From contig JAKZES010000001.1 of NCBI GenBank assembly GCA_022548915.1, positions 124,001-188,000 on the forward strand: 64,000 nucleotides of DNA. Reading direction: 5' to 3'. This stretch comes from Verrucomicrobiaceae bacterium E54. GTDB lineage: Bacteria; Verrucomicrobiota; Verrucomicrobiia; Verrucomicrobiales; Akkermansiaceae. The notes under the pieces were generated by a model. It was not told where the DNA came from. It saw nothing but the letters and a program-made list of their open reading frames with translations, and made no database searches. A program made the position numbers and the translations under genes. Positions 35,105-50,546 of this stretch are shown here, in pieces; within the stretch, counting starts at the first letter, position 1, and every line of letters starts with the position of its first letter.

Positions 35105-35743
35105 TCACCGGTCATCAATGCGCACGATGCCCCGCTGCATGGCGATGGTGGCGGCATGGGTGCGGTCCTTGGCGTCGAGCTTCGCGAAGACCCGCTCGAG
35201 GTGGTGCTTGACGGTCGAGGGCGCCATGTTCAGTGCGTCGGCGATCTCCTTGTTGCTGCTGCCGGAGATGAGCTGCCTGAGGACGTCGAGTTCACGTGGG
35301 GAGAGCCCGTCGCGGGCCCGCCGATCGGCAAGTTTCCCCTCAAGCCCGTCGGAGAAAAACGGCTCTCCTCGGGCCACGGCGCGAATCCCGTCGATCATCT
35401 CGTCGATCTCCGCCGCCTTTGATACGCAGCCAAGCGCGCCGGCTTCCGTGGCGCGGTAGAGACTCTCCTCGGTTTCAAAAATCGATAGCAGCAGGATGCG
35501 GGCATCGGGGAATTCGCCGATGATTTTCGCGATCACCTCGTCGCCTTCATGGTCAGGCAGCTTGTAGTCCATGGTGGCGACATCCGGACGGAGTTCGCGG
35601 TAAAGCTCGACGGCCCTGGCGCCGTTCTCGGCCTCGCCGACAAGTTCCATGTCGTCTTGTTGCTCGATCGCCCCGGCAAGCGCGAGGCGCACCATGGCGT
35701 GGTCGTCGACAATGAGAACGCGGGTAGAGGATGCGGGGTTCAT
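35105..35743 (-). CDS. NarL/LuxR-type response regulator
   Basis: 212 residues. Receiver domain with the acidic pair VDDH, phospho-acceptor Asp in VATMDYKLPD (about residue 57), Ser in LLLSIFE and Lys in CVSKAA. The C-terminal LuxR helix-turn-helix is LSPRELDVLRQLISGSSNKE then IADALNMAPSTVKHHLERV. The partner kinase gene overlaps its ATG by 4 bp, so the two are translationally coupled. Target genes are unknown; the divergent surface-protein cluster starting at 37947 is the natural candidate. Confidence 0.92.
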   Translation of the reverse strand: MNPASSTRVLIVDDHAMVRLALAGAIEQQDDMELVGEAENGARAVELYRELRPDVATMDYKLPDHEGDEVIAKIIGEFPDARILLLSIFETEESLYRATEAGALGCVSKAAEIDEMIDGIRAVARGEPFFSDGLEGKLADRRARDGLSPRELDVLRQLISGSSNKEIADALNMAPSTVKHHLERVFAKLDAKDRTHAATIAMQRGIVRIDDR

Positions 35744-37812
35744 GAGCGTCTGCGGGGGTGGACGACCGGAGAGGTCCAGGGAAGATGAACACGGATGCGG
35801 GTGCTCTTTCCGGGAGAGCTCTCGATCGCGAAGTCAGCGTGAATTTTGTCGGCGCGCTCGCGCATCCCAGTCAGCCCGAAATGGCCGGCGGGTGCTGGTC
35901 GCGTGGCATCGAAGCCTTTTCCGTCGTCCTTGACCTCGAGCGTCACGCCTTCCGAATCGTACGACAATCGCACCCCGATGTGGCGAGGTTGCGAGTGCCG
36001 CGCGGCATTGTTCACCGCCTCGCGGGCGATGCGGAGCAGGTGGTTCTGGGTCGTGGCGCGCAGCGGACGAGGTTTCCCGTCCACTTCAAAGCGGAGGGCC
36101 GCTTCTCCGGCAACGACAGGCAGCGATTCGCGCATCGCTTCGGGCAGGCTCCGTTTCAGCAGGTGGGGATTGCGCAGGTCGCCCACCGAAGCGCGTGCCT
36201 CGGCCCGACAGTGCTGGAGCATCCGGCGCGCGAGCGACAGCCGCTGGTGTGCGAGTTCCGGGTCGCCGTCGAGCGCGGGAGCGAGGTTGCCGAGCTGCAT
36301 CGAGAGCCCCGTCAGGTCCTGCTCGAGCGTGTCGTGCAACTCCCGTGCGATCCGGTCGCGCTCGTCTTTGATCGTAGCCTTCTCGATCTGCTCGGTGATG
36401 ATAACGGCCTGCGCGGCGATCCTCCGGCGCAGAAGCCAGACCCAGACGAGTGCGACGATCAGGACCGCCAGGGCCAGACCGAAGGCCAGCAACACCCGTT
36501 CCGGCGTCCACCACGGCGCAGGCCGGAGGACTTCCACCGCGCCCGGCCCGGCGAGATGGATCCGCATGCCGTCCGCCCACTCGATGCGTGGCATCGGCCG
36601 CGTGGTCGTGACCTCGAAGATCCCGGTGAGACGGACCTGGTCGCCGGTCTTGAGCGTGCGGCCATGGCGGTTCGGACCCGGCAGCCAAGCCTCGAAGTAC
36701 CGATCCCCGTCACGACATTGCAGGGCGGTTTCCTTCAGGCCCTCGCGTCGGGCGAGGAAGATGCAGTCGACCACCACGCGTTCGTCGTGCAGGCTCACGT
36801 TGATCCCGTTGGCCGGCTGGAATCGGATCGGATCCGGCAATCCGACCTCGCCCAGTGACTCGATTCGGACGGCGCGCAGGACGGGGCGAAAGGGGGCCAC
36901 CGTCGCGAATCCCTCGACCTCCACCTCGCTGCCAGGTGGATGCTGCTGTCCCTCGGCGGCCTGCACGAAGGTGCTGCCGGTCTCGTCTCGGAGAAACAGG
37001 CCGCCGCCTTCCAACTGGGTGACGACCCCTTTGACCCGCACCATTTCATCCGGCCCGTGATCACTGCGCAGCAGCGTGCCGATGGTTCGCAGCGTAGCGA
37101 TCCTCTGCCGGGAGATTGAATCGATGGGGACAATCTGGTCGAAGGACGGAACGAAAAAGTGCCGGTCCGTCATTTGCAGGGCGTTGTTGGAAATGGTCCC
37201 GACAACGCCTCGCAGCCTGACGCGGCGCTGCATGAGTGACGCCACCCGCTGCTCGGCATCCGCCACTTCCGGGATCTCCGCCTTGAAGGTTCGGCCATCG
37301 ATCTCGACCACCACCGTGAAGGCGAGGCCTCCCGGTTCCAGCCCGACCAACACCGCTTCAACTTCCACCCACTCGGCGTCGATCCAGCGGGTGAACATGT
37401 CGCCACCGGTGATCCGTCGAGGCTCGGGAAGATCACCCTGTCCGAGGACTTCCATCTCGGCCCCCATGATGTTGGGGAAATAGGATCGCGGATTGGTGAC
37501 GCCCTTGACCCGGATTCTCGTTCCCGGTCGGATCTTCTCCCGGTTGGCGAACTGGAGGGGAGACGAGGCATAGCAACCGGCGGTTCCGTCGTGGAGGATC
37601 AGGCCTTCGGGATCGCCGATGTTCTCCACCTTGCGGTCGAAGTAGGTCACGATCCCTTCAACTTCCACCGGCAGCTTCTCGGCAGCCTTCTCGCTCGAGA
37701 GTGCCCGAACTTCCGCCAAGGTCTTGAGCGGCGTTTCCTGGGCTATCGCGAGCGGCGCATGAATCAGCAGGAGTGCAGCGATGCGGGTCAGCACGCATCG
37801 GAGATACCACAT
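35740..37812 (-). CDS. NarX/DesK-type sensor histidine kinase with large OB-like extracytoplasmic region
   Basis: 690 residues from ATG 37812 (MWYLRCVLTRIAALLLIHAP); the frame is open to 37938. Signal peptide, then about 415 residues outside the membrane built from repeated beta-rich units of the form V-V-EG-V-T ... L-L-DGTAG ... G-RIRVKG (about residues 45-115, 245-310 and 390-425), resembling OB folds. One helix follows (LLAFGLALAVLIVALVWVWL, about 440-460). HisKA_3 phospho-acceptor His is in DRIARELHDTLEQDL near 489, and the HATPase region has NNAARHSQPRHIGV, DDGKGFD and HFGLTGMRERA. The ligand is unknown. Confidence 0.9.
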   Translation of the reverse strand: MWYLRCVLTRIAALLLIHAPLAIAQETPLKTLAEVRALSSEKAAEKLPVEVEGIVTYFDRKVENIGDPEGLILHDGTAGCYASSPLQFANREKIRPGTRIRVKGVTNPRSYFPNIMGAEMEVLGQGDLPEPRRITGGDMFTRWIDAEWVEVEAVLVGLEPGGLAFTVVVEIDGRTFKAEIPEVADAEQRVASLMQRRVRLRGVVGTISNNALQMTDRHFFVPSFDQIVPIDSISRQRIATLRTIGTLLRSDHGPDEMVRVKGVVTQLEGGGLFLRDETGSTFVQAAEGQQHPPGSEVEVEGFATVAPFRPVLRAVRIESLGEVGLPDPIRFQPANGINVSLHDERVVVDCIFLARREGLKETALQCRDGDRYFEAWLPGPNRHGRTLKTGDQVRLTGIFEVTTTRPMPRIEWADGMRIHLAGPGAVEVLRPAPWWTPERVLLAFGLALAVLIVALVWVWLLRRRIAAQAVIITEQIEKATIKDERDRIARELHDTLEQDLTGLSMQLGNLAPALDGDPELAHQRLSLARRMLQHCRAEARASVGDLRNPHLLKRSLPEAMRESLPVVAGEAALRFEVDGKPRPLRATTQNHLLRIAREAVNNAARHSQPRHIGVRLSYDSEGVTLEVKDDGKGFDATRPAPAGHFGLTGMRERADKIHADFAIESSPGKSTRIRVHLPWTSPVVHPRRRS

Positions 37813-37831
37813 CAGGCCATCCCCGAAAAAG

Positions 37832-37849
37832 GGCCATTTGGCCGGGGTG
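37832..37849 (-). repeat. 18-bp inverted copy of the hairpin at 40459
   Basis: On the minus strand these 18 bases equal 40459-40476 on the plus strand exactly; both contain GGCCAAATGGCC. The pair flanks the genes at 37947-40453 in inverted orientation. This copy lies in the leader of the kinase gene. Confidence 0.6.
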
Positions 37850-37946
37850 ACAGGCATTGGATGCTGTTGCATCTTCCGATTGCTGAATGCTTCGGAAACC
37901 CACCTGCCCACCGGTCCTTCAGCCTCCCATCCGACCAATCAAGCCC

Positions 37947-39707
37947 ATGAAATCCATGATTTTTCGCAAGAAACCCGTCATTGCCGCCCTCCTGGGAATC
38001 CTGCCATTCTCCACGATCCGAGCCGATGTTCTCGGCGAATGGACCTTCAACTCGGGCGGCACGAGCTCAGAAGCCCGACGGGCTTCCAGCAACGTGGCAC
38101 TTGGGGCCTTTGTCTCAGGATTGTTCTTCAACGACTCCTTCGACGATGTCGGAGGAGAAGCCGTGCCCAACTCCGTCCACGACGGCATCGGCTTCGGTGG
38201 TAACTCCGGCGACCAGGTTCTCTTCCTCCACCGGGCGAACTACTTCGACGGCTCGGCGGTTCCCGATCCACGGCCAACGGTCAATGACTACACCGCCTGG
38301 GGAAACGGAAACAGTCAAGGAACCGGAGCCGACCTCACCATGGACGGCAATGCGCCCATCGCCTTCACGGTTTCGGCGGATGCGATTTCGACCGTCACGG
38401 TGGACAGCATCACCATCGACCGCACCGGAGGTACTGACATCATCTTCCAGTTTCAGGAAGCGGGAGCCGCCGCCGGGTCGACGGTGACCATGAATGAGCC
38501 CAACCCGAATGTGACGGCCCTGTTGGCAGCCCCGGTGGTCGTCTCCTCGGGTGAAACGAGGACCTTCACCATCAACCTCAACAGCGGGGCCCTGAACTCA
38601 GAGCACCTCCTCGACAGCATCACGCTCAACGGCTCCGTGGTGCGCGATACTACGGTTCCCTCGGTCGCTGACTGGACCTTTGACAACCAGTCCAGCGTGG
38701 CCACTGCGCTTGAGTCATCCGGCGTGGCCACCGGCCTCACCATCTCGTCGCTCGTCGTGAACGCTTCGCACACTTCCTTCGGGGTGGGCGCGGTGCCGAG
38801 TGGCGACGACGATGGATACGGCTTTGGCGGCAATGACGGCGAACTCGTCATGTTCATCCATCGTGCCAACTACTTCAACGGTCAGGGACTGGGGACGACC
38901 ACGTGGGGGAATCCGAACGCTTCGAGCGGGATCGACACCACGGTGGCCAACTCGTCGCTCTCGTTTTCCGTGACGACCGATGGTAGCACGGCGCTCACCC
39001 TGGCCGGTCTTACGGTCGACCGCACACCAAGTGCCCCGACCCTTTACTACTTTCAAGAGGCGGGCACTCCGGCCGGAGTGTCTCCCGCGGCCAACCTGGA
39101 TCCTTCCTTCCCGGCCCTCAATTCCCCGGTCGTCTTCGGCCCGGGCGAAACCAGGACCTTCACGATCAATCTCAACAGCGGCAACCTCGATACCGCGCAC
39201 ATCCTCAACCAGATTTCACTCAATGGAACCGTCGAGACCATCAGCGCCGATCCCTACCAGGACTGGGCGACGGGCAACGGTCTGACGGCAGGGGTGAACG
39301 ACGGCTTCGACCAGAATCCCGATCTTGATCCCTTCGAAAACGGCCTTGAGTGGATTCTCGGGGGGACGACACCGCTGGGCTTTGACCAGGTCGGCATCGG
39401 AACCACCGGTGAACTGCTCAACATGGAGGTCGATGGCAGCAGGAACCTCATCTTCACCTTCCAACGAATTGATGATTCGGAAGGCGAAGCGACGCTCAAG
39501 GTGCAGTTCAGCAACGACCTGTTCGTCGCCGACAACCACGAGGTGATGATCGGGGCGAGCGGTCCGGAAGGTGTGCCACCCTCCGGCGTGACGGTGGATG
39601 TCGTCGAGAACGCCGACGCCCCGGATGATGTCACGGTGACCATCCCCGCCTCCTACGGCGATCCGGACGGCAGGCTCTTCGGCCGTCTGGAGGCGACCCA
39701 GCCGTAG
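37947..39707 (+). CDS. Secreted protein with two copies of an unrecognised ~190-residue domain
   Basis: 586 residues from ATG 37947. Signal peptide IFRKKPVIAALLGILPFSTIRA. Copy 1 (about 27-215) runs from VLGEWTFNSGG through FLHRANYFDGSAVPDPRP, FQFQEAGAAAGS and GETRTFTINLNSGALNSEHL to ITLNGSV. Copy 2 (about 218-405) repeats this with ADWTFDN, MFIHRANYFNG, YYFQEAGTPAG and GETRTFTINLNSGNLDTAHI. A C-terminal 180-residue region (PDLDPFENGLEWILGG, NLIFTFQRIDDSEGEATL) resembles tails common on verrucomicrobial surface proteins. Two further copies of the domain occur in the next genes. Divergent from the two-component system. Confidence 0.82.
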   Translation: MKSMIFRKKPVIAALLGILPFSTIRADVLGEWTFNSGGTSSEARRASSNVALGAFVSGLFFNDSFDDVGGEAVPNSVHDGIGFGGNSGDQVLFLHRANYFDGSAVPDPRPTVNDYTAWGNGNSQGTGADLTMDGNAPIAFTVSADAISTVTVDSITIDRTGGTDIIFQFQEAGAAAGSTVTMNEPNPNVTALLAAPVVVSSGETRTFTINLNSGALNSEHLLDSITLNGSVVRDTTVPSVADWTFDNQSSVATALESSGVATGLTISSLVVNASHTSFGVGAVPSGDDDGYGFGGNDGELVMFIHRANYFNGQGLGTTTWGNPNASSGIDTTVANSSLSFSVTTDGSTALTLAGLTVDRTPSAPTLYYFQEAGTPAGVSPAANLDPSFPALNSPVVFGPGETRTFTINLNSGNLDTAHILNQISLNGTVETISADPYQDWATGNGLTAGVNDGFDQNPDLDPFENGLEWILGGTTPLGFDQVGIGTTGELLNMEVDGSRNLIFTFQRIDDSEGEATLKVQFSNDLFVADNHEVMIGASGPEGVPPSGVTVDVVENADAPDDVTVTIPASYGDPDGRLFGRLEATQP

Positions 39708-39748
39708 AGCCCTCCATTTTGAACTGATCGAGCAATTTGAAAGCAGAC

Positions 39749-40453
39749 ATGCTGTCAGCAAGCCAAGCCCGGAGTTCAGCGAAAAACGGCTTCACCCTCG
39801 TGGAGTTGTTGGTCGTGATCACCATTGTGGTGGTGCTTGCAGCTCTGATCTTCGCGGTGGGGGTGCGTGCCCGTGACACGGCCCAGAACGCGCAATGCGT
39901 GTCGAGTCTTCGCCGGTTGGCCATCGCCGGACAGAGCTACGCCGCCACGCACGGATCCTACCCGAATCAGGGACGCCAGCCCGACGGTGGCAGTGCGTTC
40001 TGGTTCAAGGCGATGGAAGAGGAACTCGGATTCGAGCCAGGCACAAACGCTGCCGTCATTGAGCGGGCCGAGACGATGCCGACCTGCAAGAAGTGCCTGA
40101 ATACGCATGGTCCGGGAACGAATCCCAACAATCGCTTCATCCGGACCTACTCGATGAATCACGGCCTGCTCAATCCGACCCAGAACAGCGAAGGTCAGTT
40201 CACCTTCCCGGGCCTGCGCGCGATCCGTGTGAAGTATCCGTCCAGAACCGCCTTTTTCATGGACGGCACTCTGGCGCAGGATGGCCCCTACTGGCACTAT
40301 CTCGCGAGGAGGGGTGAATGGCTCAACCCCAAGAACTTCATCCACGGCGACAAGGCCAATGTCGTCTTCATCGATGGTCACGTGGAGGCCTTCCGGCTGG
40401 GAGAAGTCCCGACTGACGGGGATAATCCGTTCTGGAATCCGCTGGCGGACTGA
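39749..40453 (+). CDS. Pseudopilin-like protein, H-X9-DG type
   Basis: 234 residues from ATG 39749 (a TTG at 39737 is in frame). Prepilin site GFTLVELLVVI preceded by a short leader, then a hydrophobic helix (VVVLAALIFAVGVRARDTAQ). The C-terminus has HGDKANVVFIDGHVEAFRLG, the H-X9-DG motif of the large DUF1559-related families in Planctomycetes and Verrucomicrobiota. A CKKC pair is near 115. Probably processed by prepilin peptidase and exported. Its position between surface-protein genes suggests a role in their display. Confidence 0.86.
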   Translation: MLSASQARSSAKNGFTLVELLVVITIVVVLAALIFAVGVRARDTAQNAQCVSSLRRLAIAGQSYAATHGSYPNQGRQPDGGSAFWFKAMEEELGFEPGTNAAVIERAETMPTCKKCLNTHGPGTNPNNRFIRTYSMNHGLLNPTQNSEGQFTFPGLRAIRVKYPSRTAFFMDGTLAQDGPYWHYLARRGEWLNPKNFIHGDKANVVFIDGHVEAFRLGEVPTDGDNPFWNPLAD

Positions 40454-40458
40454 GACGA

Positions 40459-40479
40459 CACCCCGGCCAAATGGCCGGG
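40459..40479 (+). terminator. Hairpin after the H-X9-DG pseudopilin gene
   Basis: 7-bp stem CCCGGCC / GGCCGGG with loop AAAT (40462-40479), 8 bp after the stop. Its first 18 bases recur in inverted orientation at 37832. Followed by TTGACGG, not a T-run. Confidence 0.5.
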
Positions 40480-40558
40480 TTGACGGATGGTGGTCCTCAT
40501 CGTGACAATTGACGTCGAAAACCTCCTGAATCCGAACACTCTCTCCGAAAGAACACCC

Positions 40559-41317
40559 ATGAAATTTGCGCTTTCTCTATCACTGGCAGGCTTGGGCCTG
40601 TCGGCTGGTTTTCCGATCCAAGCCGCTGTGATTGCGGAGTGGACGTTCACGGATCGTTCCAGCGAGGCAACGGCCATGGCCTCCGAGAACAACGCCACGG
40701 GCGTCACCGTTTCCCGGCTGTTCATCAACGATTCATTCCGCTTTGCAGGCCTCAACAATCTGCCGCCGACGCCCCACGATGGCTACGGCTTCGGGAACTC
40801 CACCAACGACATCTTCATTGATCGGGCAAGCTACTTCGATGGCTCCACGGTTCCCAGCCCAAGGCCAATCGCAAGCGACTACACCTCTTTCGGCACCCCA
40901 CCCAATCAGGGAACGGGCGATGATATGTCTTCCGATGACAATGCTCCCTTTTCTTTCACGGTCGCTGCGGGTGCGCTGTACAACGTCACGATTGAAAGCC
41001 TGACCGTGGATCGAAATGGCGGTATTGGCTCGAACGTTCTCTTCTTCCAAGAGGCGGGCGCATCCAACCCGGACACGGTCGGCACGGGTGTCAACACCAA
41101 CGGGGAGGTCACCGTGCCCCTGTTTGATGGCCCGCTCCTGATCAACGCAGGCGAAACCAAATCGTTCACCATCAATATCAACAGCTCGGCGCTCGATACG
41201 CGTTTGACCCTGGACGACATCATCCTCAACGGTTCGGTTGTCGCGGTCCCCGAGCCGGATGCGATCGCGCTGTTCGGTCTTGCCGCTTTGACGGTTGCCC
41301 TGCGTCGTCGCAGGTAG
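40559..41317 (+). CDS. PEP-CTERM protein with one copy of the shared domain
   Basis: 252 residues from ATG 40559. Signal peptide KFALSLSLAGLGLSAGFPIQA, then one copy of the domain also in the genes at 37947 and 41551 (VIAEWTFTDRSSEA, IDRASYFDGSTVPSPRP, LFFQEAGASNPD, GETKSFTININSSALDTRL, IILNGSV). It ends VPEPDAIALFGLAALTVALRRRR: PEP motif, hydrophobic helix and Arg cluster, the sorting signal cut by an exosortase. So the domain is displayed on, or passes through, the cell surface. No exosortase gene is in this window. Composition looks slightly less GC-rich than neighbours by eye. Confidence 0.88.
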   Translation: MKFALSLSLAGLGLSAGFPIQAAVIAEWTFTDRSSEATAMASENNATGVTVSRLFINDSFRFAGLNNLPPTPHDGYGFGNSTNDIFIDRASYFDGSTVPSPRPIASDYTSFGTPPNQGTGDDMSSDDNAPFSFTVAAGALYNVTIESLTVDRNGGIGSNVLFFQEAGASNPDTVGTGVNTNGEVTVPLFDGPLLINAGETKSFTININSSALDTRLTLDDIILNGSVVAVPEPDAIALFGLAALTVALRRRR

Positions 41318-41374
41318 CGGCATTTTCGTGATCTCGCGGGCCCGAGCCAGCGATCGCCCATAAAATTCAGGCCT

Positions 41375-41399
41375 GCCCTTGCCGCCTCGCCGCAAGGGC
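41375..41399 (+). terminator. Hairpin after the PEP-CTERM gene
   Basis: 8-bp perfect stem GCCCTTGC / GCAAGGGC with a 9-base loop, 58 bp after the stop at 41317. No T-run. Confidence 0.45.
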
Positions 41400-41550
41400 T
41401 ACCTGACGATGGTGATCAAGAATCGCCGTCACCAGTCTGTCCCATGGCTTCGCGCCACAGCTCCCATCTTCCCGGCCTGCTGGCACCGTTCGCGGCGTGA
41501 TCCGCTCTTGGAAGTGCATAGCGTTTTAATCCCTGTTCCCGAAACCCACC

Positions 41551-44500
41551 ATGAACCTAAGGATTGCTTCTCTGATCTGCTGGCTTGCCGCATTGGCGGT
41601 GGTGCCTCTCCAGGCCGACGTCATCGCCGAATGGACGTTTAATGCGGGCACCACTTCCGCTGCGCGTCTCGCTTCCAGCAACGTTTCATCGGGTGCCTCG
41701 GTCACGGGACTTGCGTTCAACGGCTCATTCACCGATTTCGGACCAGGGGCGGTGCCGAATGATGTCCATGACGGCTTCGGCTTTGGCGGGGCCACCGAAG
41801 GTGGAGCAAGCGAGCAGGTGATTTTCCTTCATCGAGCGAACTATTTCGACGGATCATCCGTGCCCAGTCCTCGTCCGACGTCTGCCGATTACACTTCGTG
41901 GGGGCCCGCATCGAGTGCGGGCACGGGAGCGGATCCCAGCTCAAACGGCAATGCTCCGATCTCGTTCACAGTGACGGCAGACGCCCTGTCGAGCATCACG
42001 GTGGACAGCCTCACGGTGGATTTCTTCGACCAGGCTGCGATGATCTTCTTCTTTCAGGAGGCAGGTGCCACGGCGGGATCTCCGGTCACTGTCAATACGG
42101 CCCTGACCTCGATCGATGTGCCGCTGGACGATCCCGTGGTGATAGGGCCGGGGCAAACCCGGAGCTTCACCATCAACCTCAACAGCGGCGCGCTCGATTC
42201 GAGGCACAACCTCGACGGCCTCGCCCTCAACGGCAAGGTGCAGACCGTCATTGTCGACGACAGCTTCGCCAAGGGGAACGGTAGCTTTGAATTTGATGCG
42301 GCAGGCGCAGAGCTGGCTGCCGACAACGCAACCCCGGGCAAGTGGACCACTGGAACAGGTGTCGGGACTTTTCCCATCGACCAACTCCTGAGCCGTAACA
42401 ATACCCCAGTCTCCGATGGCTCCCACGCGCTGGCCATTGGGGCGAACGGCGGCAATACCACCATCCAGGGAGGGCTGCTCAACACGGGCTACATCGTGCA
42501 GGCCGACGACAGATTTACTCTGAGCTTCGACTGGGGCACCTTCGCTGGCTGGGTCGCGGGAGACACCCTGGAGGTTCACCTTTTCACGACCAGTGATGAC
42601 ACGCTGTCCGGGTCGAAGACGGTCATTTATTCCGGTGCTGTGACCGGCGATCCCGGAGCCAACTATATAAGCGAGTCGTTTGTATCAATCGGCACAGTTG
42701 CCCCCGCCAGCGAAGGCCGGCAGCTGTGGCTGGAATTCAACACGGATGATGTCGGCCAATTCGCCCGGGTGGATCAGGTCATGCTGCAGACAGCAGTCGC
42801 GCCGCCTTTCTTCACCGACTGGAGTGACGGCACCCCGATCGTCATGCCGGACAGTGGTGAGTTCGAGGTTCTCGGCGACTGGTCGGCGTGGGACGGGTTG
42901 CCCGAGCGGCGCTGGCTCGGCCCCGATCACTGGGCGAACCGGATGCAGGACTGGTCGGTCCGTGACGGTGCTCTGGTTTGCGACAATTCGAAGTTCGTCC
43001 AGACCAAGACGGTGCATCAGCTTGGCAACCAGCTTGGGATCGGCACCGAGGACTTTTCACTCAAGACCCGCCTGTCCTTCACCAATGCCGGCACGGCCGG
43101 ATTTGGCGGATTCCTGATCGGCGGCGGCCAGGGCCACCTGAACTACAAAGGTGCTTCCCTGATCTGCGGCACACCCGGCAAGGGTGCGGGCATCATCGCG
43201 GCCGTCGATTACAACGGTGGCAACACCCTGTCTTTCCGTGACATGAATGACTTCGCGCCGATCGTTCATCCCGTCGCCCTATCTGGAGCGGAAACCCGAT
43301 TCACCATGACGCCGCTCGCTACTGCTGCGGATCTCGTCTTGCTGCTGGAAGGCATCCATGTGGCACCCAGCTCCGACTACACACTGCGCCTGAGTGCCTG
43401 GTCTGCGGATGAGTCGACCCTGCTTGGAGCGGTCGAGCTGACCGGTGTCGATCCCCACCTGCTCATCGGCAATATCGCGCTCGCTTCCCAGGGTGGGGCA
43501 TCCAGCGGGGATGTAACGTTCCAGCGGTGGTACAAGCGTGGCAGCAAATGGTCGGTCGCAAGCGGCCGTGGTTTCGGCCCGGTCGCAGGCACGCTCTACA
43601 GCACGGCAGCCGGCAAGCTCAAGGTGGGCGTGCAGGCCATCCCGCTGAGCGTCTATGGCAGCGGCGTCCCCGCCAACGTCACCCTGCGCATCGAGAAGCA
43701 GCAACCTGATACCACTTGGCTGGCGCTGACGGCGGACGAAGCCATCACCAGCGAAAGCTACCACCACCTGTTCGAGTTTCCGGGGTGGGATACCACCCAG
43801 GGTCATGAAATGCGTGCCGTGCTCTCGGATGCCGACGGCCAGACCTACCTCTACCCCTTCACCGTGAAAGCCGAACCGGCTCCAGGCGACACCGTCGACG
43901 CCGCGACCTTTTCCTGCACCGGAACAATGGGCCGGAATGCCAACACCCCCAATGCCGTCCCCCAAGCTGGCGAGGTGCCGATCCCAAAATGGCTACCCGC
44001 CAACTGCTGGTTCCCCTTTGACTTCCAGGTCAGCCAGGCCGGGTCGAAGGACATCGACATCCTCTTCTTCACCGGCGACCAAATCTACGAAACCCGTCCG
44101 ACCCAGACCGATTTCTCCGCGACCCCGGCCGAGGACTACCTCTACAAATTCCTCCTCTGGCACTGGGCCTTCCAGCCGCTCACCTCGCAATACCCGAGCA
44201 TCCTGCAAACCGACGACCACGACGTCTACCAGCCGGATCTCTTCGGCCAGGACCGGCTCGGCAACACCGAGGGACCGGCCAACGGAGGCTTTCAGCGGTC
44301 CTTCGATTTCCTCGAGAACTTCGTCCAGAGAACGATGACCGCGCACAACCCGGACACCCTTGAGCCAACCCCCAGCGCACGCACCGGACTGAGCAACTAC
44401 TACACCGCCTTCGACTACGGGGATGTCAGCTTCTTCATCCTCGAAGACCGGAAGTTCAAGCGCGGCACCAACACCACCGAGACCGACTACCCGGAAACCT

Positions 44501-45714
44501 TCCTCGGCGAAATCCAGCTCGAGCACCTGCGCGACTGGGCCTGCACTCCCATGCCCGGCAAACGCAAGTGCGTGGTCGCGCAGACGATCTACTCCTCCAT
44601 GTCCCTCACCGGAGCCGGCACCTTCAACTACGACATCGACCCCAACGCGATCTACACCGACGAACGCAACGACATCATTCGCATGCTCGGCGCCAACGGC
44701 GCGGTGATCCTCTCCGGCGACCAGCACCTTTGCACCTTCTCGCGGCTCGGCTGGACCTACGACTCGAACACGGGCCAGGCGATCCCCGACGGGCACTACC
44801 ACAACGGCCCCTACCAGTTCTGCGCACCGCCCGGTGGCAACGTCTTCTGGCGCTGGTTCATCCCCGGCAACGGCGTTCGCCAGCTCGCTCCGGCTGATGG
44901 CAGCGCGCCGGGCCACGTCGGCGGCTTTCGCGACTTCTTCGGGAACCCCTTCACCATGCTCGCGGTCGCCAATCCCGGAGACGAAGCCTTCTCCACGATC
45001 CCCACGCGGATCCGATACGTGCTCACCGATGCCGAGGTCGCCGCCGGAGCGGAGCTGGAGCAGATCGGACAGGGCGACGGTTTCGGCATCCTCCGCTTCA
45101 ACGGAACAGCCCAGCAACTCACGGCCGAGGCTTGGAAAGTCAGCGAGGACGCGCAGTACGATGGTTTCCCGCAGGTTGTGTCCTACGCGACGCTGGACGA
45201 CACCACCGCTGCACCGGTTCCGCTGGTCGCGCAGAATCCCGATGCGGATGGAGACGGCATCGCCGATAGCGTCGAGGGCAGCGGCGACCTTGATGGAGAC
45301 GGCATCCCGAACTTCCTCGACCCGGACTCGGACGGCGACGGCGTGAGCGACGCCGATGAGTCGATCTTCGGGTTCGATCCTTACTCGTCTGCCGACGCGT
45401 CGTCCGATCAGGATGGCGACGGCGTCACGGACATCCTCGAAGCCGTCGCGGGCACATCGGCGACCGACCGCTTGGATCTCCCTTTCCTCTCGTTGATCGA
45501 GATTGCCGGTCCCTCCGGGAACCGCCTGCAATTCGAGGCCAAGCGGGGCCGGAAATACACCGTCCAACGTTCGGACAACTTGCTCACCTGGCCGGATCCG
45601 GTCGTCATCGACCATAAGGCTGCGGACCAGTCGCTCGACTACGATGACGACACTCCGGGCTTCGACGGGCCCCGCGTGTTCTATCGACTTGGCTACGAGT
45701 ATGCAGGCTACTGA
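41551..45714 (+). CDS. Large modular secreted protein: shared domain + PhoD-like phosphatase + calcium-binding-type repeats
   Basis: 1387 residues. Signal peptide LRIASLICWLAALAVVPLQA. Residues about 23-230 are a copy of the shared domain (VIAEWTFNAGTTS, FLHRANYFDGSSVPSPRP, FFFQEAGATAGS, TRSFTINLNSGALDSRH). About 230-780 are beta-rich jelly-roll-like segments. About 785-1130 match PhoD-type phosphoesterases, with metal-site motifs FTGDQIYE, QTDDHDVY, ILEDRKF and LSGDQHLCTF. About 1225-1290 are thrombospondin type 3-like Asp repeats (DADGDGIADS, DLDGDGIPN, DSDGDGVSDAD). A C-terminal beta module follows. Probably a surface phosphatase for phosphate esters; substrate unknown. Confidence 0.85.
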   Translation: MNLRIASLICWLAALAVVPLQADVIAEWTFNAGTTSAARLASSNVSSGASVTGLAFNGSFTDFGPGAVPNDVHDGFGFGGATEGGASEQVIFLHRANYFDGSSVPSPRPTSADYTSWGPASSAGTGADPSSNGNAPISFTVTADALSSITVDSLTVDFFDQAAMIFFFQEAGATAGSPVTVNTALTSIDVPLDDPVVIGPGQTRSFTINLNSGALDSRHNLDGLALNGKVQTVIVDDSFAKGNGSFEFDAAGAELAADNATPGKWTTGTGVGTFPIDQLLSRNNTPVSDGSHALAIGANGGNTTIQGGLLNTGYIVQADDRFTLSFDWGTFAGWVAGDTLEVHLFTTSDDTLSGSKTVIYSGAVTGDPGANYISESFVSIGTVAPASEGRQLWLEFNTDDVGQFARVDQVMLQTAVAPPFFTDWSDGTPIVMPDSGEFEVLGDWSAWDGLPERRWLGPDHWANRMQDWSVRDGALVCDNSKFVQTKTVHQLGNQLGIGTEDFSLKTRLSFTNAGTAGFGGFLIGGGQGHLNYKGASLICGTPGKGAGIIAAVDYNGGNTLSFRDMNDFAPIVHPVALSGAETRFTMTPLATAADLVLLLEGIHVAPSSDYTLRLSAWSADESTLLGAVELTGVDPHLLIGNIALASQGGASSGDVTFQRWYKRGSKWSVASGRGFGPVAGTLYSTAAGKLKVGVQAIPLSVYGSGVPANVTLRIEKQQPDTTWLALTADEAITSESYHHLFEFPGWDTTQGHEMRAVLSDADGQTYLYPFTVKAEPAPGDTVDAATFSCTGTMGRNANTPNAVPQAGEVPIPKWLPANCWFPFDFQVSQAGSKDIDILFFTGDQIYETRPTQTDFSATPAEDYLYKFLLWHWAFQPLTSQYPSILQTDDHDVYQPDLFGQDRLGNTEGPANGGFQRSFDFLENFVQRTMTAHNPDTLEPTPSARTGLSNYYTAFDYGDVSFFILEDRKFKRGTNTTETDYPETFLGEIQLEHLRDWACTPMPGKRKCVVAQTIYSSMSLTGAGTFNYDIDPNAIYTDERNDIIRMLGANGAVILSGDQHLCTFSRLGWTYDSNTGQAIPDGHYHNGPYQFCAPPGGNVFWRWFIPGNGVRQLAPADGSAPGHVGGFRDFFGNPFTMLAVANPGDEAFSTIPTRIRYVLTDAEVAAGAELEQIGQGDGFGILRFNGTAQQLTAEAWKVSEDAQYDGFPQVVSYATLDDTTAAPVPLVAQNPDADGDGIADSVEGSGDLDGDGIPNFLDPDSDGDGVSDADESIFGFDPYSSADASSDQDGDGVTDILEAVAGTSATDRLDLPFLSLIEIAGPSGNRLQFEAKRGRKYTVQRSDNLLTWPDPVVIDHKAADQSLDYDDDTPGFDGPRVFYRLGYEYAGY

Positions 45715-45811
45715 TCCACCCGGCCTCTGCGCTCCGTAGTTCATGAAGCTGGCGCTTCTGCCGGTGGCAGGTGCTGTATTCCGTCACTTCCACTTCCCGA
45801 CCTGTTTACTC

Positions 45812-48166
45812 ATGATTCGACTTCTGTGGTTAGCCATCGCGTCTGGCATCTTCCTGACACCAGCCACCGCCACCTCGTTCCGGAAGGCGATGCCCCATTG
45901 GCCAGATACCGGCGGCGACGATTTGAACCGAAGGATCGGCTTCCGGGTGGTGTTGGATGAGGTTCCCGCAGATGCTGTCCTGCGCGTCGCCACCTCAGGA
46001 CTCTACCGGGCCACCGTCGATGGCAAGTTTCTCGGCCACGGACCGGCCCGCGCCGGGCACGGGCATTTCCGAATCGACGAGTGGCCGATCAAGCCGCTGT
46101 CGGAAGGCGGACCGACCGTCATCGGCATCGAGGTGGGGGCCAGCGTTGCTCGCAGCTACTACATGGTCAAACAGCCGCCCTTCCTGCAGGCGGAGGTGGT
46201 GAGCGGTGGCAAGGTGCTGGCGACCACCAGGGCGTTCCAAGCCATCGACCTTCACCCTGCGGTGGTGCGCAAGGTGCCGCGCTACAGCTATCAGCGGACC
46301 TTCATCGAAGTGTTCCGGCCGGCCCCAGGCTGGCAGGCATGGCGCACGAAGAGGAAGTGGGACAGCGGGGTTCTGGCGCTCAAGGAAACGCCGGTCGTTC
46401 CGCTTACCGCACGCGGCGTCCCGTATCCCGAGTTCAAGGTGATCGATTCGAAGGTGGTTGCCGGCGGCCGCTTCGAGCTGCTCGGCAAGGCGCCCAAACG
46501 CCGATACTACGGATTCCATCCGTCGGGTTTCGGCGACTTTCCGGACGCCGAGTTGGAGGCCCGGCCCGACCATCTGATGAGTTCGCTGAAGACCACGGAA
46601 CTGAAGGAGGAAACACCGGACACGGCGATCGAGGCGGGCGGGTTCCATCTGCACGATTTCGGGGTGAACCTGAGCGGGTTCATCGGGCTCCGGCTGCGGG
46701 TGGAGAAGCCGACGCGTCTCTTGGCCACCTTCGACGAATTGCGGAGTGGGCCCCTGAAGGACGTCGACCCGCACCGAATGCAGTGTGTGAATGCCGTGCA
46801 GATCGACCTTTCCGTCGGTACCCATGAAATCGAGACCTTCGAGCCGTACACGCTTCGATACCTCCAACTGCACGCGCTGGACGCCGCCGTCACCGTCGAG
46901 CGCAGCTATCTGCGGGAACTGAGCCATCCGCACGCCGACCGCGCGACCTTCGCCTCTTCCGACCCGCGCTTCGATGCCATCTTCGAGGCCGCCCGCGAGA
47001 CCTTCCGGCAGAACGCCACCGACATCTACATGGACTGCCCGAGTCGCGAGCGAGCCGGCTGGTTGTGCGACTCGTTTTTCACCGGGCGTGTCGAGGCCGA
47101 CCTGACCGGGGCATCCGCCGTGGAACGGAACTTCCTCGAGAACTACGCCCAACCGGAGACCTTTCCCGGACTGGTCCCCGGCATGCTGCCGATGTGCTAT
47201 CCGTCCGACCCCTACCAGGGAAACTACATCCCGAACTGGTCGCTGTGGTTTCTTCTCGAGCTGGAGGAATACCTCGCCCGGACCGGTGATCGTGAGCTGA
47301 TCGACCTTTTGCGCCCGAAGGTCGATGCGCTGCTGAAGTTCTTCGCCGGCTACGAAAACTCCGATGGCCTGTTGGAGAAACTCGACGAGTGGGTCTTCGT
47401 CGAGTGGTCGAAGGCCAACGAACTGGTTCAGGACGTGAACTACCCGACGAACATGCTCTACGCCGCCGCGCTGAATGCGGCATCGCGGGTCTACCGGAAC
47501 GAGACATGGGCCACCAAGGCGGCTTCGCTCCGCGAAAAGATCAACGAGCAGTCCTTCGACGGCACCTTCTACCGGGACCACGCCAAACGGCTCCCGGACG
47601 GCAGCCTCGAAGTTCGGCCGGAACGGACCGAGGTCTGCCAGTACTACGCGTTCTTCTTCGATACCACCACGCCAGAGGCGCGCCCGGAGCTCTGGAAGAC
47701 CCTGGTCGATGAGTTCGGCCCGTCGCGTCGCGAGTCCAAGGCGCATCCCGAGATCTTTCCCTGCAACCAGCTTCCCGGGAACGTGCTGCGGATCGAGATC
47801 CTGTCCCGTTACGGCGAAGCCGCCCGCATCCATGACGAGGCCATCGGCTACTGGCTCATGATGGCGGAGACCACCGGCACCCTGTGGGAGCACGACAAGC
47901 CCCAGGCCTCGTGCAACCACGGCTTCGCGTCCCACGCGGCGGTCGTCCTCCGGCGGGACATCCTCGGTCTGCGCCAGATCGACCACCGGGCGAAGACGGT
48001 TGCATTCATGATACCGGAGCATCCTCTCGAGAGGTGCCGCGGCTCGTTCCCGACGGCGGATGGCGACATCGTGGTGGAGTGGACGCGGGGGGGCGGGTCG
48101 AAACTTTCGCTTCCGAAAGGCTGGAAGGCCGTGGATGTTCCGGTCGCGGCGGCGGACGAACGCTGA
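45812..48166 (+). CDS. GH78-like (alpha-L-rhamnosidase family) secreted glycosidase
   Basis: 784 residues from ATG 45812 (the frame opens at 45743, but this start gives a clean signal peptide MIRLLWLAIASGIFLTPATA). The N-terminal half has the beta-sandwich modules of GH78 (VATSGLYRATVDGKFLGHGP). The (alpha/alpha)6 barrel begins near 385, with the family signature MDCPSRERAGWLCDSFFTGR near 406, corresponding to the D-C-P-x-R-E-R-x-G-W-x-x-D motif holding an acidic catalytic residue. GTLWEHDKPQASCNHGFASH near 690 is also characteristic. It likely removes terminal alpha-rhamnose from a plant or algal polysaccharide. Confidence 0.83.
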   Translation: MIRLLWLAIASGIFLTPATATSFRKAMPHWPDTGGDDLNRRIGFRVVLDEVPADAVLRVATSGLYRATVDGKFLGHGPARAGHGHFRIDEWPIKPLSEGGPTVIGIEVGASVARSYYMVKQPPFLQAEVVSGGKVLATTRAFQAIDLHPAVVRKVPRYSYQRTFIEVFRPAPGWQAWRTKRKWDSGVLALKETPVVPLTARGVPYPEFKVIDSKVVAGGRFELLGKAPKRRYYGFHPSGFGDFPDAELEARPDHLMSSLKTTELKEETPDTAIEAGGFHLHDFGVNLSGFIGLRLRVEKPTRLLATFDELRSGPLKDVDPHRMQCVNAVQIDLSVGTHEIETFEPYTLRYLQLHALDAAVTVERSYLRELSHPHADRATFASSDPRFDAIFEAARETFRQNATDIYMDCPSRERAGWLCDSFFTGRVEADLTGASAVERNFLENYAQPETFPGLVPGMLPMCYPSDPYQGNYIPNWSLWFLLELEEYLARTGDRELIDLLRPKVDALLKFFAGYENSDGLLEKLDEWVFVEWSKANELVQDVNYPTNMLYAAALNAASRVYRNETWATKAASLREKINEQSFDGTFYRDHAKRLPDGSLEVRPERTEVCQYYAFFFDTTTPEARPELWKTLVDEFGPSRRESKAHPEIFPCNQLPGNVLRIEILSRYGEAARIHDEAIGYWLMMAETTGTLWEHDKPQASCNHGFASHAAVVLRRDILGLRQIDHRAKTVAFMIPEHPLERCRGSFPTADGDIVVEWTRGGGSKLSLPKGWKAVDVPVAAADER

Positions 48167-48218
48167 TTAGCCCGGAGCCTCCCGAGCCTGCCCGGAAACC
48201 AACGTGGCAGGCCACTTC

Positions 48219-50546
48219 ATGCCCATGCGCGCATCATCTCTATTCTCCCTGCAAACGATCACGACCTGCCGAGTGTTCCGGTGGGCGGTCGTGCTGGTCG
48301 CTTTCCACATCATTTCGGCGAATGCCGCCGAGTTCAAGGTCGCGGACTTCGGCGCGGTTGGCGACGGCAAGACGGATGACGCGCCTGCGGCACGCCGGGC
48401 GCTGGCGGCTGCGATCGAGGCCGGGCCAGGATCGAGGGTGGTGTTCGAGAAGAAGAGCTATCGCTTCGCCCGGCAGTCCGGCGACGCGATCCTGGCCCTC
48501 GCCGGGGTCTCCGGCATCGCGCTCGAGGGCAACGGCGCGGAGATCATCGGCAACCCGTGGAACGGCTTTCTCCGGATCAGCGATTGCGCCGGCATCACCA
48601 TGCGCGGCTTCATTCTCGACTGTGATCCGTTGAGTTTCACCCAGGGCGACATCATTGAGGTCGCGCCTGAAGAGGGAACCTTCGTGCTGCGCATTCACGA
48701 CGGCTACGCCAACCCGGTCGAGCTAAGTGAGCAGCTTGAAAAAAGGGCATGGCAGAAGGTCGGATTCACGCTCGAGGCGGACGCGCGGCGAATCAAGCCG
48801 GGACCGATCGATCACATCGAGAACATCGGCGAGATGGATCGCTCCAAGCGGCTGCTTCGGGTCGACCTCCGGGCGGAGAGTTTCACGCATATCGCCCCAG
48901 GCGACCACTTCGTCTTCGGTCTGCACCATGGCGGACACGGGGCGCTAATCAAGGTGGAGCGGAGCACCGACATCCGGCTCGTGGATTACACGATCCACGG
49001 CGGCAAGTTCGGGATGAACCATTCTTTTTCCGACAACCACGGTCGGGTTCATGTGAAGGGAGCGAAGATCGGCCTCCGCCCCGGCACGACCCATCTGGTG
49101 ACCAGCATCAAGGACGGCTTCCACGTGAAGCACAACCGGGTCGGCCCGATCATTGAGGACTGCACGCTGGAGGGCATGATGGACGATTCGATCAACATCT
49201 CCGTCTGCCCCTACTGGGTGAAGGAGGATCTCGGGGACAACCGCTATCTGATCGCCGAAGTCGCCTTTTCGCCGAGAGTCGGCGACCGCTTGATGGCCTA
49301 CACGCCGGTTCCCGGCACGGTCGTCCGGGGGCTGAAGGTGCTGTCGGTGGAACCCAGCGGGAAACATGCGAACCGCACGGAGAAGTGGAACATCATCACG
49401 CTGGACCGCCCGATCCCCGGTCTCTCCCTGCACCAGGGCGGGAATCTCTTTCCTGGCGGTCCCGACAAGCTGCGTTTCACCGGCCTCTACAATCTCGATG
49501 CCTGCGGCCAGGGCTACATCGTCCGCAACAACCGCTTCCTCGCCCAGCGGCGGCACGCCCTGCTGGCGCGGAGCCCTGGCGGCCTGTTCGAGGGAAACAC
49601 GATCGACGGCGTCGGCGGCTCCGGCGTCTGGCTCGGCAACGAGATCGGCTCCTTCTACGAGGGTCCGTTTCCCGCCAACACCGTGATCCGCAACAACACT
49701 TTCCGCGACACCGGCCAGAACCCGATCCGCGTCCGCATCAACGGCCGGAATGCGTGGGCCAGGAACATCCGGATCGAAGGCAACACCTTCAGCGGATGGC
49801 CCGCCGCCGCGATGGATCTCTCCGGGATTCAAGGAGGCGTGATCCGCGGCAACTCGATCGAGGCGGGCCGGGAGGACGGGACGGAAGCCGTGCCGGTGGT
49901 GATCCGATCCAGCGAGGAACTCCGAATTTCGGGGAACGAGATCCGCGACGAGCGTTCCGGCCTGACCGCCGTCTTCGACCTGTCTGATGAGGTCGATGCC
50001 GCCTCTTTGGTGATGTCCGACAATCGGATGACGCTTGCCCCCGATTTCCCGAAGCTGATGCGGATCCTTCCACCGCTCGCGATCCAGATGCGGGGACAGG
50101 ACATTCGACCGCTGTGGGCGGAGGAGGACACCGGGGCCTTCCTGAGGGCGGGTTCCGGGCAGCCTGAAGAAGGGGAGAAGTCTCGCGTCTGGACCCTCCA
50201 CCCGGTGTGGAAGAACGGTCTCAGGGGTTCCCTGCTGTTCGAACTGCCGGCGGATCTCACGGGCGCCGACGGCATCAGCTTCTCCACCCGCAGCGCGACC
50301 GGGCTCGGCGACGGGGTTGCTCTGACGGTCGAATGGAAGCCGGTTGGTGCGCCCGACGGCGACTACCGTGGCTGCCATGAGGCCACCATCCGCAGCAAGA
50401 AGTGGACGGGCCACCAGGTCAGGATCCCGTCCGGCGACGGACCGGTGCTGCTGCGCTTCCGCTTCGACTGCGGACCCGCCGACAATGCCGGCTACGACAC
50501 CGTTCAGATCGCAGGAATCGATGTCTTCATGGAAGACAAGCCTTGA
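48219..50546 (+). CDS. Right-handed beta-helix protein, pectate lyase 3/GH28 superfamily type
   Basis: 775 residues from ATG 48219 (GTG 48204 and ATG 48225 are also in frame). Signal region VFRWAVVLVAFHIISANAA. It begins FKVADFGAVGDGKTDDAPA, the usual opening of Pectate_lyase_3 beta-helices. The long middle has many beta-helix turns (ITMRGFILDCDPLSF, NTVIRNNTFRDTGQNPIRVR, NIRIEGNTFSGW). The last 130 residues look like a carbohydrate-binding or lectin-like sandwich (GLRGSLLFELPADLTGADG). A polysaccharide-active enzyme is likely; lyase versus hydrolase cannot be told. Starts 52 bp after the GH78 gene. Confidence 0.8.
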   Translation: MPMRASSLFSLQTITTCRVFRWAVVLVAFHIISANAAEFKVADFGAVGDGKTDDAPAARRALAAAIEAGPGSRVVFEKKSYRFARQSGDAILALAGVSGIALEGNGAEIIGNPWNGFLRISDCAGITMRGFILDCDPLSFTQGDIIEVAPEEGTFVLRIHDGYANPVELSEQLEKRAWQKVGFTLEADARRIKPGPIDHIENIGEMDRSKRLLRVDLRAESFTHIAPGDHFVFGLHHGGHGALIKVERSTDIRLVDYTIHGGKFGMNHSFSDNHGRVHVKGAKIGLRPGTTHLVTSIKDGFHVKHNRVGPIIEDCTLEGMMDDSINISVCPYWVKEDLGDNRYLIAEVAFSPRVGDRLMAYTPVPGTVVRGLKVLSVEPSGKHANRTEKWNIITLDRPIPGLSLHQGGNLFPGGPDKLRFTGLYNLDACGQGYIVRNNRFLAQRRHALLARSPGGLFEGNTIDGVGGSGVWLGNEIGSFYEGPFPANTVIRNNTFRDTGQNPIRVRINGRNAWARNIRIEGNTFSGWPAAAMDLSGIQGGVIRGNSIEAGREDGTEAVPVVIRSSEELRISGNEIRDERSGLTAVFDLSDEVDAASLVMSDNRMTLAPDFPKLMRILPPLAIQMRGQDIRPLWAEEDTGAFLRAGSGQPEEGEKSRVWTLHPVWKNGLRGSLLFELPADLTGADGISFSTRSATGLGDGVALTVEWKPVGAPDGDYRGCHEATIRSKKWTGHQVRIPSGDGPVLLRFRFDCGPADNAGYDTVQIAGIDVFMEDKP

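Follow-up and report, generated by a model that had tools for sequence, protein, structure and literature searches.

The window analysed here is a stretch of 64,000 nucleotides (nt) from the genome of Verrucomicrobiaceae bacterium E54 (contig JAKZES010000001.1, positions 124,001 to 188,000), and our subject is a locus within it at which a module of ~205 residues occurs in four copies, encoded by three plus-strand genes for exported proteins (Table 1). D2 carries the module twice, D1 carries it once together with a PEP-CTERM anchor, and the third protein joins it to a PhoD-like metallophosphatase. A histidine kinase (HK) and a response regulator (RR) are encoded on the minus strand, divergent from D2, and a dyad-symmetric DNA element precedes both D2 and D1. 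An initial annotation, made from the letters of the sequence, had described the domain as standing alone with an anchor, doubled and fused to a phosphatase, beside a pseudopilin and a divergent sensor system, and Pfam recognises the anchor (PF07589), the PhoD-like domain (PF09423), the pseudopilin (PF07963) and the HK/RR pair (35105-37938). New beyond that description are the regulatory element and the genome-wide pattern of matched modules.

Table 1 Genes, domains and candidate operators at the module locus, in window coordinates
Feature	Position	Strand	Family or remark
NarL/LuxR-type RR, proposed dyad reader	35105..35743	-	PF00072, PF00196
HisKA_3 HK	35740..37812	-	PF07730, PF02518; start inferred from L007/L008
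Candidate operator 1, GGCCATTTGGCCGGGGTGAC	37832..37851	+	95 nt before D2 start, in HK/D2 divergent gap
D2, exported, two module copies and C-terminal tail	37947..39707	+	No Pfam/NCBIfam family
Module copy 1 (in D2)	38025-38646	+	
Module copy 2 (in D2), most diverged	38646-39254	+	
C-terminal tail domain of D2	39255..39704	+	Tail profile, one of six seeds
Pseudopilin-like protein	39737..40453	+	PF07963, pilin-type N-methylation motif
Candidate operator 2, dyad GACACCCCGGCCAAATGGCCGGGTTGAC	40457..40484	+	74 nt before D1 start
D1, signal peptide (by eye), one module, PEP-CTERM anchor	40559..41317	+	PF07589
Module copy 3 (in D1)	40622-41254	+	
PEP-CTERM sorting signal	41243..41311	+	D1 residues 228-250 = PF07589 1-24
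Module and PhoD-like metallophosphatase, TSP3-like region	41551..45714	+	PF09423
Module copy 4 (front of PhoD-linked protein)	41614-42258	+	
PhoD domain	44038..44775	+	PF09423 at residues 830-1075

The module family and its genes

Profile and pairwise comparisons placed all four copies in the three genes, as the annotation had it. Their pairwise identity is 39-61%, or 43-62% when each is compared with copy 1, and their matches to the four-copy profile (E 4e-90 or lower) are strong by construction. The length had been put at ~190 residues, somewhat short of the measured value, and the series of motifs said to be common to all copies is present with small deviations: the E-W-T-F start reads D-W-T-F in copy 2, and the Y/F-F-Q-E-A-G segment reads Q-F-Q-E-A-G in copy 1. 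The domain had also been called unrecognised, a reading that the annotation said would fall if it proved an ordinary member of a well-described family; searches of Pfam, NCBIfam and PDB sequences returned no family that covers it.

The module family is rare. A profile search of the genome of E54 gave no convincing copy beyond the four; a fifth match (E 0.097) lies on the strand opposite a DnaX-like frame. Among 57 genomes, E54 and relatives, one further and diverged copy was found (G011), and among 384 genomes of the class, E54 was accompanied by a single weak, generic PEP-CTERM match (G202, E 1.3e-4). At the level of the family, the module is present in 4 of 260 genomes, namely E54 itself (G000), G566, G576 and G011. 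All of these surveys scored a limited number of candidates per genome.

With its start corrected to 40559, D1 ends in a PEP-CTERM motif that scores above the Pfam cut-off (E 2e-5), while Pfam and NCBIfam scans gave no such match in D2 or in the PhoD-linked protein. An exosortase, which the annotation had advised looking for, is encoded elsewhere in the genome (PF09721, E 9e-50, at G000:C196). The PhoD domain is recognised at E 2e-14 and displays G-D-Q-I-Y, D-D-H-D and G-D-Q-H segments; a PDB sequence search with the whole protein gave zero matches. Proteins of the PhoD type that are 29-36% identical to it were found at eight loci in six other genomes, where they have different N-terminal parts, as far as these are readable, and where the module was not found.

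Linkage to a two-component pair

The HK and RR accompany D2 and D1 in two further genomes of the family, at loci L007 and L008 (in G566 and G576, respectively), where the order on a single strand is D2, D1 with its PEP-CTERM signal, HK and RR. The window HK is 57% and the window RR 63-64% identical to these counterparts, and comparison with them places the start of the HK at 37812 within an open reading frame that extends to 37938. Since the four genes occur together in another order, their linkage has been kept through rearrangement.

A structural model of the HK sensor part (35740-37731) is tandem-oligonucleotide/oligosaccharide-binding-fold (OB)-like, with a predicted local distance difference test (pLDDT) of 62, a predicted template modelling score (pTM) of 0.46 and low TM-scores. 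It resembles, at low confidence, the OB folds of the nucleic-acid-binding proteins HIN-200 and RPA, and because of this low confidence we propose no ligand. Large exported proteins often neighbour the more distant HK/RR relatives (L068, L069, L070, L073 and L074), as do two small proteins that recur as a pair.

A dyad element before D2 and D1

The dyad was spotted by reading the intergenic gaps, and its pattern was derived from the sites at module loci. The consensus, GGCCAwwTGGCCGrGkTGAC, spans 20-28 nt, and the dyad is fuller at D1 than at D2. No third place was found in the window at up to 3 mismatches, where shuffles average 0.06 matches, or in the 5.9-Mb genome at up to 2 mismatches, where the reversed control gave 0. 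The same dyad stands before both D2 and D1 in L007 (68 and 81 nt from the start) and in L008 (68 and 78 nt). Across the 260 genomes of the family there are five zero-mismatch sites, all of them at the module locus and in the three genomes that have the full locus.

A dispersed repeat is ruled out by the two places in 5.9 Mb, and an Rfam element by the lack of any family at gathering score. Near-matches elsewhere, where their context was examined, were also discarded. The paired ones of the genus Akkermansia (1-2 mismatches), checked in L130 and L131 with G092, G101 and G108 left out, lie inside tandem coding genes. At nine further loci with 1-2 mismatches (L124-L128, L132, L135 and L136, with L129 set apart), all sites but those of L129 and one of the two in L125 lie inside called genes, and none is counted as support.

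The dyad beside related pairs in other genomes

We compared 23 HK loci, taken from the top of lists of 36 and 34 entries and thus not a random sample; signal peptides and likeness to autotransporters and pilins in these genomes were judged by eye. Sites in three further genomes bear on the dyad independently of how its pattern was derived. In G493, which belongs to another genus, a dyad that matches on both strands lies 200 nt from an HK/RR pair that shares 48% (HK) and 53% (RR) identity with the pair of L007. A divergent gene begins ~119 nt further on and encodes a product with an exported-looking N terminus (the contig ends soon after). In G496, which has the next closest HK, a 27-mer that departs from operator 1 at 3 positions lies between the RR and a gene for a PEP-CTERM autotransporter-like protein. 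Elsewhere in that 15.7 kb the best place has 11 mismatches, and ten shuffles yielded 9-11. In G037, a member of another family, two identical sites have the same GCCATTTGGC core, one between the HK and a pseudopilin-like cluster and the other ~83 nt before the gene of a large exported protein, and no third copy of this dyad turned up in the genome with as many as 3 mismatches allowed. Finally, G565 (L129) lacks the module genes, yet its syntenic place still has a site with one mismatch.

The recognition helix of the RR provides a second line of comparison. Of the 21 RRs compared, five have the sequence STVK[HR]H[IL]ER, and these five are the very ones with the site; the RR of G037, where the flank of the site is changed, has TVKLHISN instead. 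Palindromes in the gaps of more distant HK loci were considered and set aside: only those of L073 and L074 outdid the bulk of their shuffles (3 and 5 of 200 as good), and they are unlike the dyad, while CCCCATTTGGGG-like dyads in L068, with a counterpart in L069, fall within the shuffles (31 and 40 of 200 as good).

Predicted fold of the module

A structure model built from ten sequences (pLDDT 69, pTM 0.74, with the core strands confident) predicts that the module core is a jelly-roll β-sandwich like that of carbohydrate-binding modules (CBMs). The top structural alignments are to CBM86 (Z 9.0), CBM61 (8.8), a pectate-lyase module (8.5), CBM29 (8.3) and CBM27 (8.2). The predicted core is what the module has in common with jelly-roll CBMs (CBM86, 61, 29, 27 and 6); it differs from them in a conserved insert of ~70 residues and is only ~7-11% identical to them in the rows of the structural alignment. 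No CBM family matched its sequence above cut-off, the best being CBM60 at E 0.14, outside the module.

The fold is common, rare as the family is, and a common fold by itself shows no function. When the module profile was compared with 28 of the 53 PEP-CTERM proteins of E54, sorting motif removed, the best match was the protein of L029 (hhalign E 2.8e-4, probability 41%); those of L025, L028 and L033 were also among the top five, at a probability of 2% or less. The L029 protein, a generic jelly-roll PEP-CTERM protein, resembles the module in the order of its segments and in a D-N-x-x-L-x-G-x-V-like ending but lacks the F-x-x-R-A-x-Y-F-D-G insert. From this match and the moderate fold scores, the module is probably a diverged offshoot of a fold type that is widespread, but this is not certain.

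Matched modules on anchored proteins and their neighbours

The pairing of a small anchored protein with a larger protein that carries the same module extends well beyond the window. There are 53 PEP-CTERM places in the genome of E54, 48 of them above the Pfam cut-off, and 20 of the 53 genes, the window locus included, have a same-module partner within 5 kb (E<1e-4), with a best identity above 45% in 13 cases and of 26-35% in seven. Control genes encoding 150-450 residues have a similar neighbour in 9 of 158 cases when PEP-CTERM neighbours are left out. With these kept in the control, the comparison is 19/49 vs 15/159 at E<1e-4 (Fisher 7e-6) and 14/49 vs 15/159 at E<1e-20 (Fisher 0.0017). The counts depend on our own gene caller and a PEP-CTERM regular expression, both of which err; mislabelled genes include that of L170 and the large genes of L190, L201 and D2. 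The window trio, with its three-gene design, is one instance of this genome-wide pattern, a limit on its reading as a dedicated system.

The partners scanned for families carry sulfatase (L206, L180), GDSL esterase (L212, one of those in L198), SASA acetylesterase (L186), BNR_4 (L205, L177), BD-FAE-like esterase (L201) and Ig/invasin-like domains (L190, L221, the other in L198); three have no family and some others weak ones. In L198, the shared module overlaps an above-cut-off match to F5/8 type C, a galactose-binding-like domain, which favours a binding role at that locus. Several of the 23 loci from other genomes likewise place a small PEP-CTERM protein beside a larger exported protein with the same module, at identities of 66% and 78% (both in L066), 45% (L129, with a sulfatase), 76-79% (L007/L008) and, weakly, 27% (L174); the PEP-labelled genes of L166, L173 and L170 have no such partner in this comparison. 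Identity between the D1 module and D2b reaches 83% in L007, while positional counterparts across genomes are 44-49% identical. In L129, the region syntenic with L007 (2187-6218) encodes a PEP-CTERM protein and a sulfatase that have another module in common.

The tail of D2 is a further recurrent part. A domain of ~130 residues closes 15 of 408 genes in PEP-CTERM loci, six of which are the profile seeds; its matches end 0-5 residues from the C terminus, five of the six seeds end near K/R-L-F-A/G-R-L, and it has no NCBIfam match. D2 has it in common with other exported proteins of E54, among them those of L190, L198, L200, L222, L187, L208 and L197, and it could be a second sorting signal.

A proposed mechanism and its alternatives

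The initial annotation took the reuse of the domain at one locus as a sign of a dedicated surface system, and this has gained ground from the linkage of the HK/RR pair to module genes in two further genomes and from a cis-element that, in the genome of E54, is found at this locus only. The explanation we favour, to which we would give about an even chance, is a regulated system at the cell surface: a module protein anchored by the exosortase and an enzyme that also carries the module would recognise a single ligand. The HK would use its OB-like domains to sense something beyond the cytoplasm and would phosphorylate the NarL-type RR, which would bind the dyad before D2 and D1 and switch both genes on or off. 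The sites beside related HK/RR pairs and the shared recognition helix make this divergent pair the likely controller, and at the level of sequence there are strong grounds for taking the RR as the protein that reads the dyad. The exosortase would then sort D1 to the surface through its PEP-CTERM signal, as the motif and the presence of the enzyme suggest, and D2 and the PhoD-linked enzyme would be exported without such an anchor. The jelly-roll module would most likely bind one extracellular polysaccharide or other coat polymer, and the phosphatase would thereby be held where the anchored D1 sits. The PhoD-linked gene may be read through from D1, or may be separate. A wider proposal, which we put forward tentatively, is that each verrucomicrobial locus of this kind has its own jelly-roll module on a small exosortase-anchored protein and on a large enzyme that lacks this anchor, so that the anchored copy recruits the enzyme, or co-localises with it, in trans, with the large enzymes often ending in a different C-terminal tail and with loci like that of the window switched by a dedicated OB-sensor/NarL-type pair with a two-site operator.

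Several observations weigh against this explanation. The confinement of zero-mismatch sites is partly circular, the pattern having come from the same sites, and with up to 2 mismatches allowed, 71 of the 260 family genomes contain a match somewhere. The search for operators found none for the PhoD-linked gene, and G011 has a module copy without the motif. The G496 site scores 13.6 with a position matrix, barely above the 13.4 of 20 shuffles, the G037 sites score 9.2, below the 14.8 of their shuffles, and neither locus exceeds shuffles as a palindrome, so the G037 case rests on the repeat, its confinement and place, and the core. G565 is not among the 26 genomes with the HK at E<1e-40, so its site may be a remnant. 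The loci with both helix and site are the closest relatives, and common descent explains part of their agreement. No motif match was found at 17 of the 23 HK loci, two of which also yielded no RR; drifting specificity would give such a picture, which is nevertheless a limit on the claim. As for the module, the poorly modelled insert at residues ~40-110 holds the invariant F-x-x-R-A-x-Y-F segment, its structural matches include the non-sugar proteins BIRC6 (Z 8.2) and meprin (Z 7.9), Z-scores of 8-9 are middling where 7-8 are common by chance, and Foldseek returned one match at E<0.001, with low TM-scores.

Two other explanations concern the module itself. It could be a protein-protein docking domain: by binding between copies, or of copies to a common scaffold, D1 would hold D2 and the phosphatase in place with no shared glycan in between. 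Anchored one-module proteins adjoin same-module enzymes at many loci, and the 83% identity of D1 and D2b within L007, against 44-49% across genomes, looks as if the modules of a locus were kept matched; the top fold matches, however, are carbohydrate-binding modules and the copies in the window have drifted to 39-61% identity, and we consider docking fairly unlikely. The paired genes could also be ordinary tandem duplicates with no functional matching, their modules being interchangeable, generic jelly rolls. Recent duplication would also account for the identity within L007, controls also have similar neighbours (9/158), and the gap shrinks when PEP-CTERM neighbours are kept in the control (19/49 and 14/49, each vs 15/159). 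Against this stand the excess over controls (20/53 vs 9/158) and the many partners that, far from being plain duplicates, are bigger proteins in which the module is fused to a sulfatase, GDSL, SASA, BNR_4, esterase or PhoD domain; we consider simple duplication unlikely.

A third alternative concerns the dyad, which might be the site of another regulator, a hairpin in the 5′ untranslated region or a terminator, the HK/RR pair being a mere neighbour. The sequence GGCCAAATGGCC is able to form a hairpin, operator 2 starts 4 nt past the stop codon of the pseudopilin gene, and G565 has a site without this HK. We hold this to be improbable: no T run follows the dyad, no Rfam family was found at gathering score, the site lies in divergent promoter gaps in the window, G493 and G037, where a terminator is not expected, and in G493, G496 and G037 it accompanies a related HK/RR pair with no module in sight.

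Comparison with known systems

The first PEP-CTERM proteins to be noticed were those of Verrucomicrobium spinosum, 65 in number (Haft 2006, PMC1569441). The proteobacterial PrsK/PrsR/PrsT system offers a close parallel. It combines a two-component pair, a shared upstream DNA motif and genes for exosortase-sorted proteins, as the window does; PrsR, however, is a sigma-54 activator of the NtrC kind, with a -24/-12 promoter that was found upstream of 99 of 167 proteobacterial PEP-CTERM genes, and motif 2 ends on average 71 nt before the start (PMC1569441). In the window, by contrast, the regulator is of the NarL type and the motif is a dyad present at only two places in its own genome. A sigma-54 activation domain is absent from the 17 Pfam families listed for the window RR, which has a receiver and a LuxR-type helix-turn-helix instead. 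Because the class of regulator differs, the window system is not a member of PrsK/PrsR.

EmbRS of Rubrivivax gelatinosus pairs a LuxR-family regulator with a membrane kinase that act on biofilm and matrix, and a suppressor screen led to a cluster that includes genes of the PEP-CTERM system (PMC3684757). LuxR-type regulation tied to matrix genes is the point of likeness. The EmbRS kinase differs in having ten predicted membrane helices, and the excerpts available from that report mention neither the module proteins nor the dyad motif (PMC3684757). Searches of an open-access library showed no paper on the dyad or on matched pairs, which is not proof of absence. Haft 2006 states that further regulators and motifs were still to be discovered (PMC1569441); the locus described here offers one candidate PEP-CTERM regulator together with its proposed operator, and the matching of modules between anchor and enzyme is a testable idea of why such genomes have dozens of small anchored proteins with no known function.

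Neighbouring genes

The membership of the pseudopilin in the system is uncertain, its link to the other genes being positional only. Pseudopilin-like genes occur again near members of the HK family, at 283-1014 in L166 and at 10100-16400 in L067, both judged by eye. Two products of the region downstream of the PhoD-linked gene (45743-50546), one resembling alpha-L-rhamnosidases (PF17389) and the other a right-handed beta-helix protein, are a hint that polysaccharides are used.

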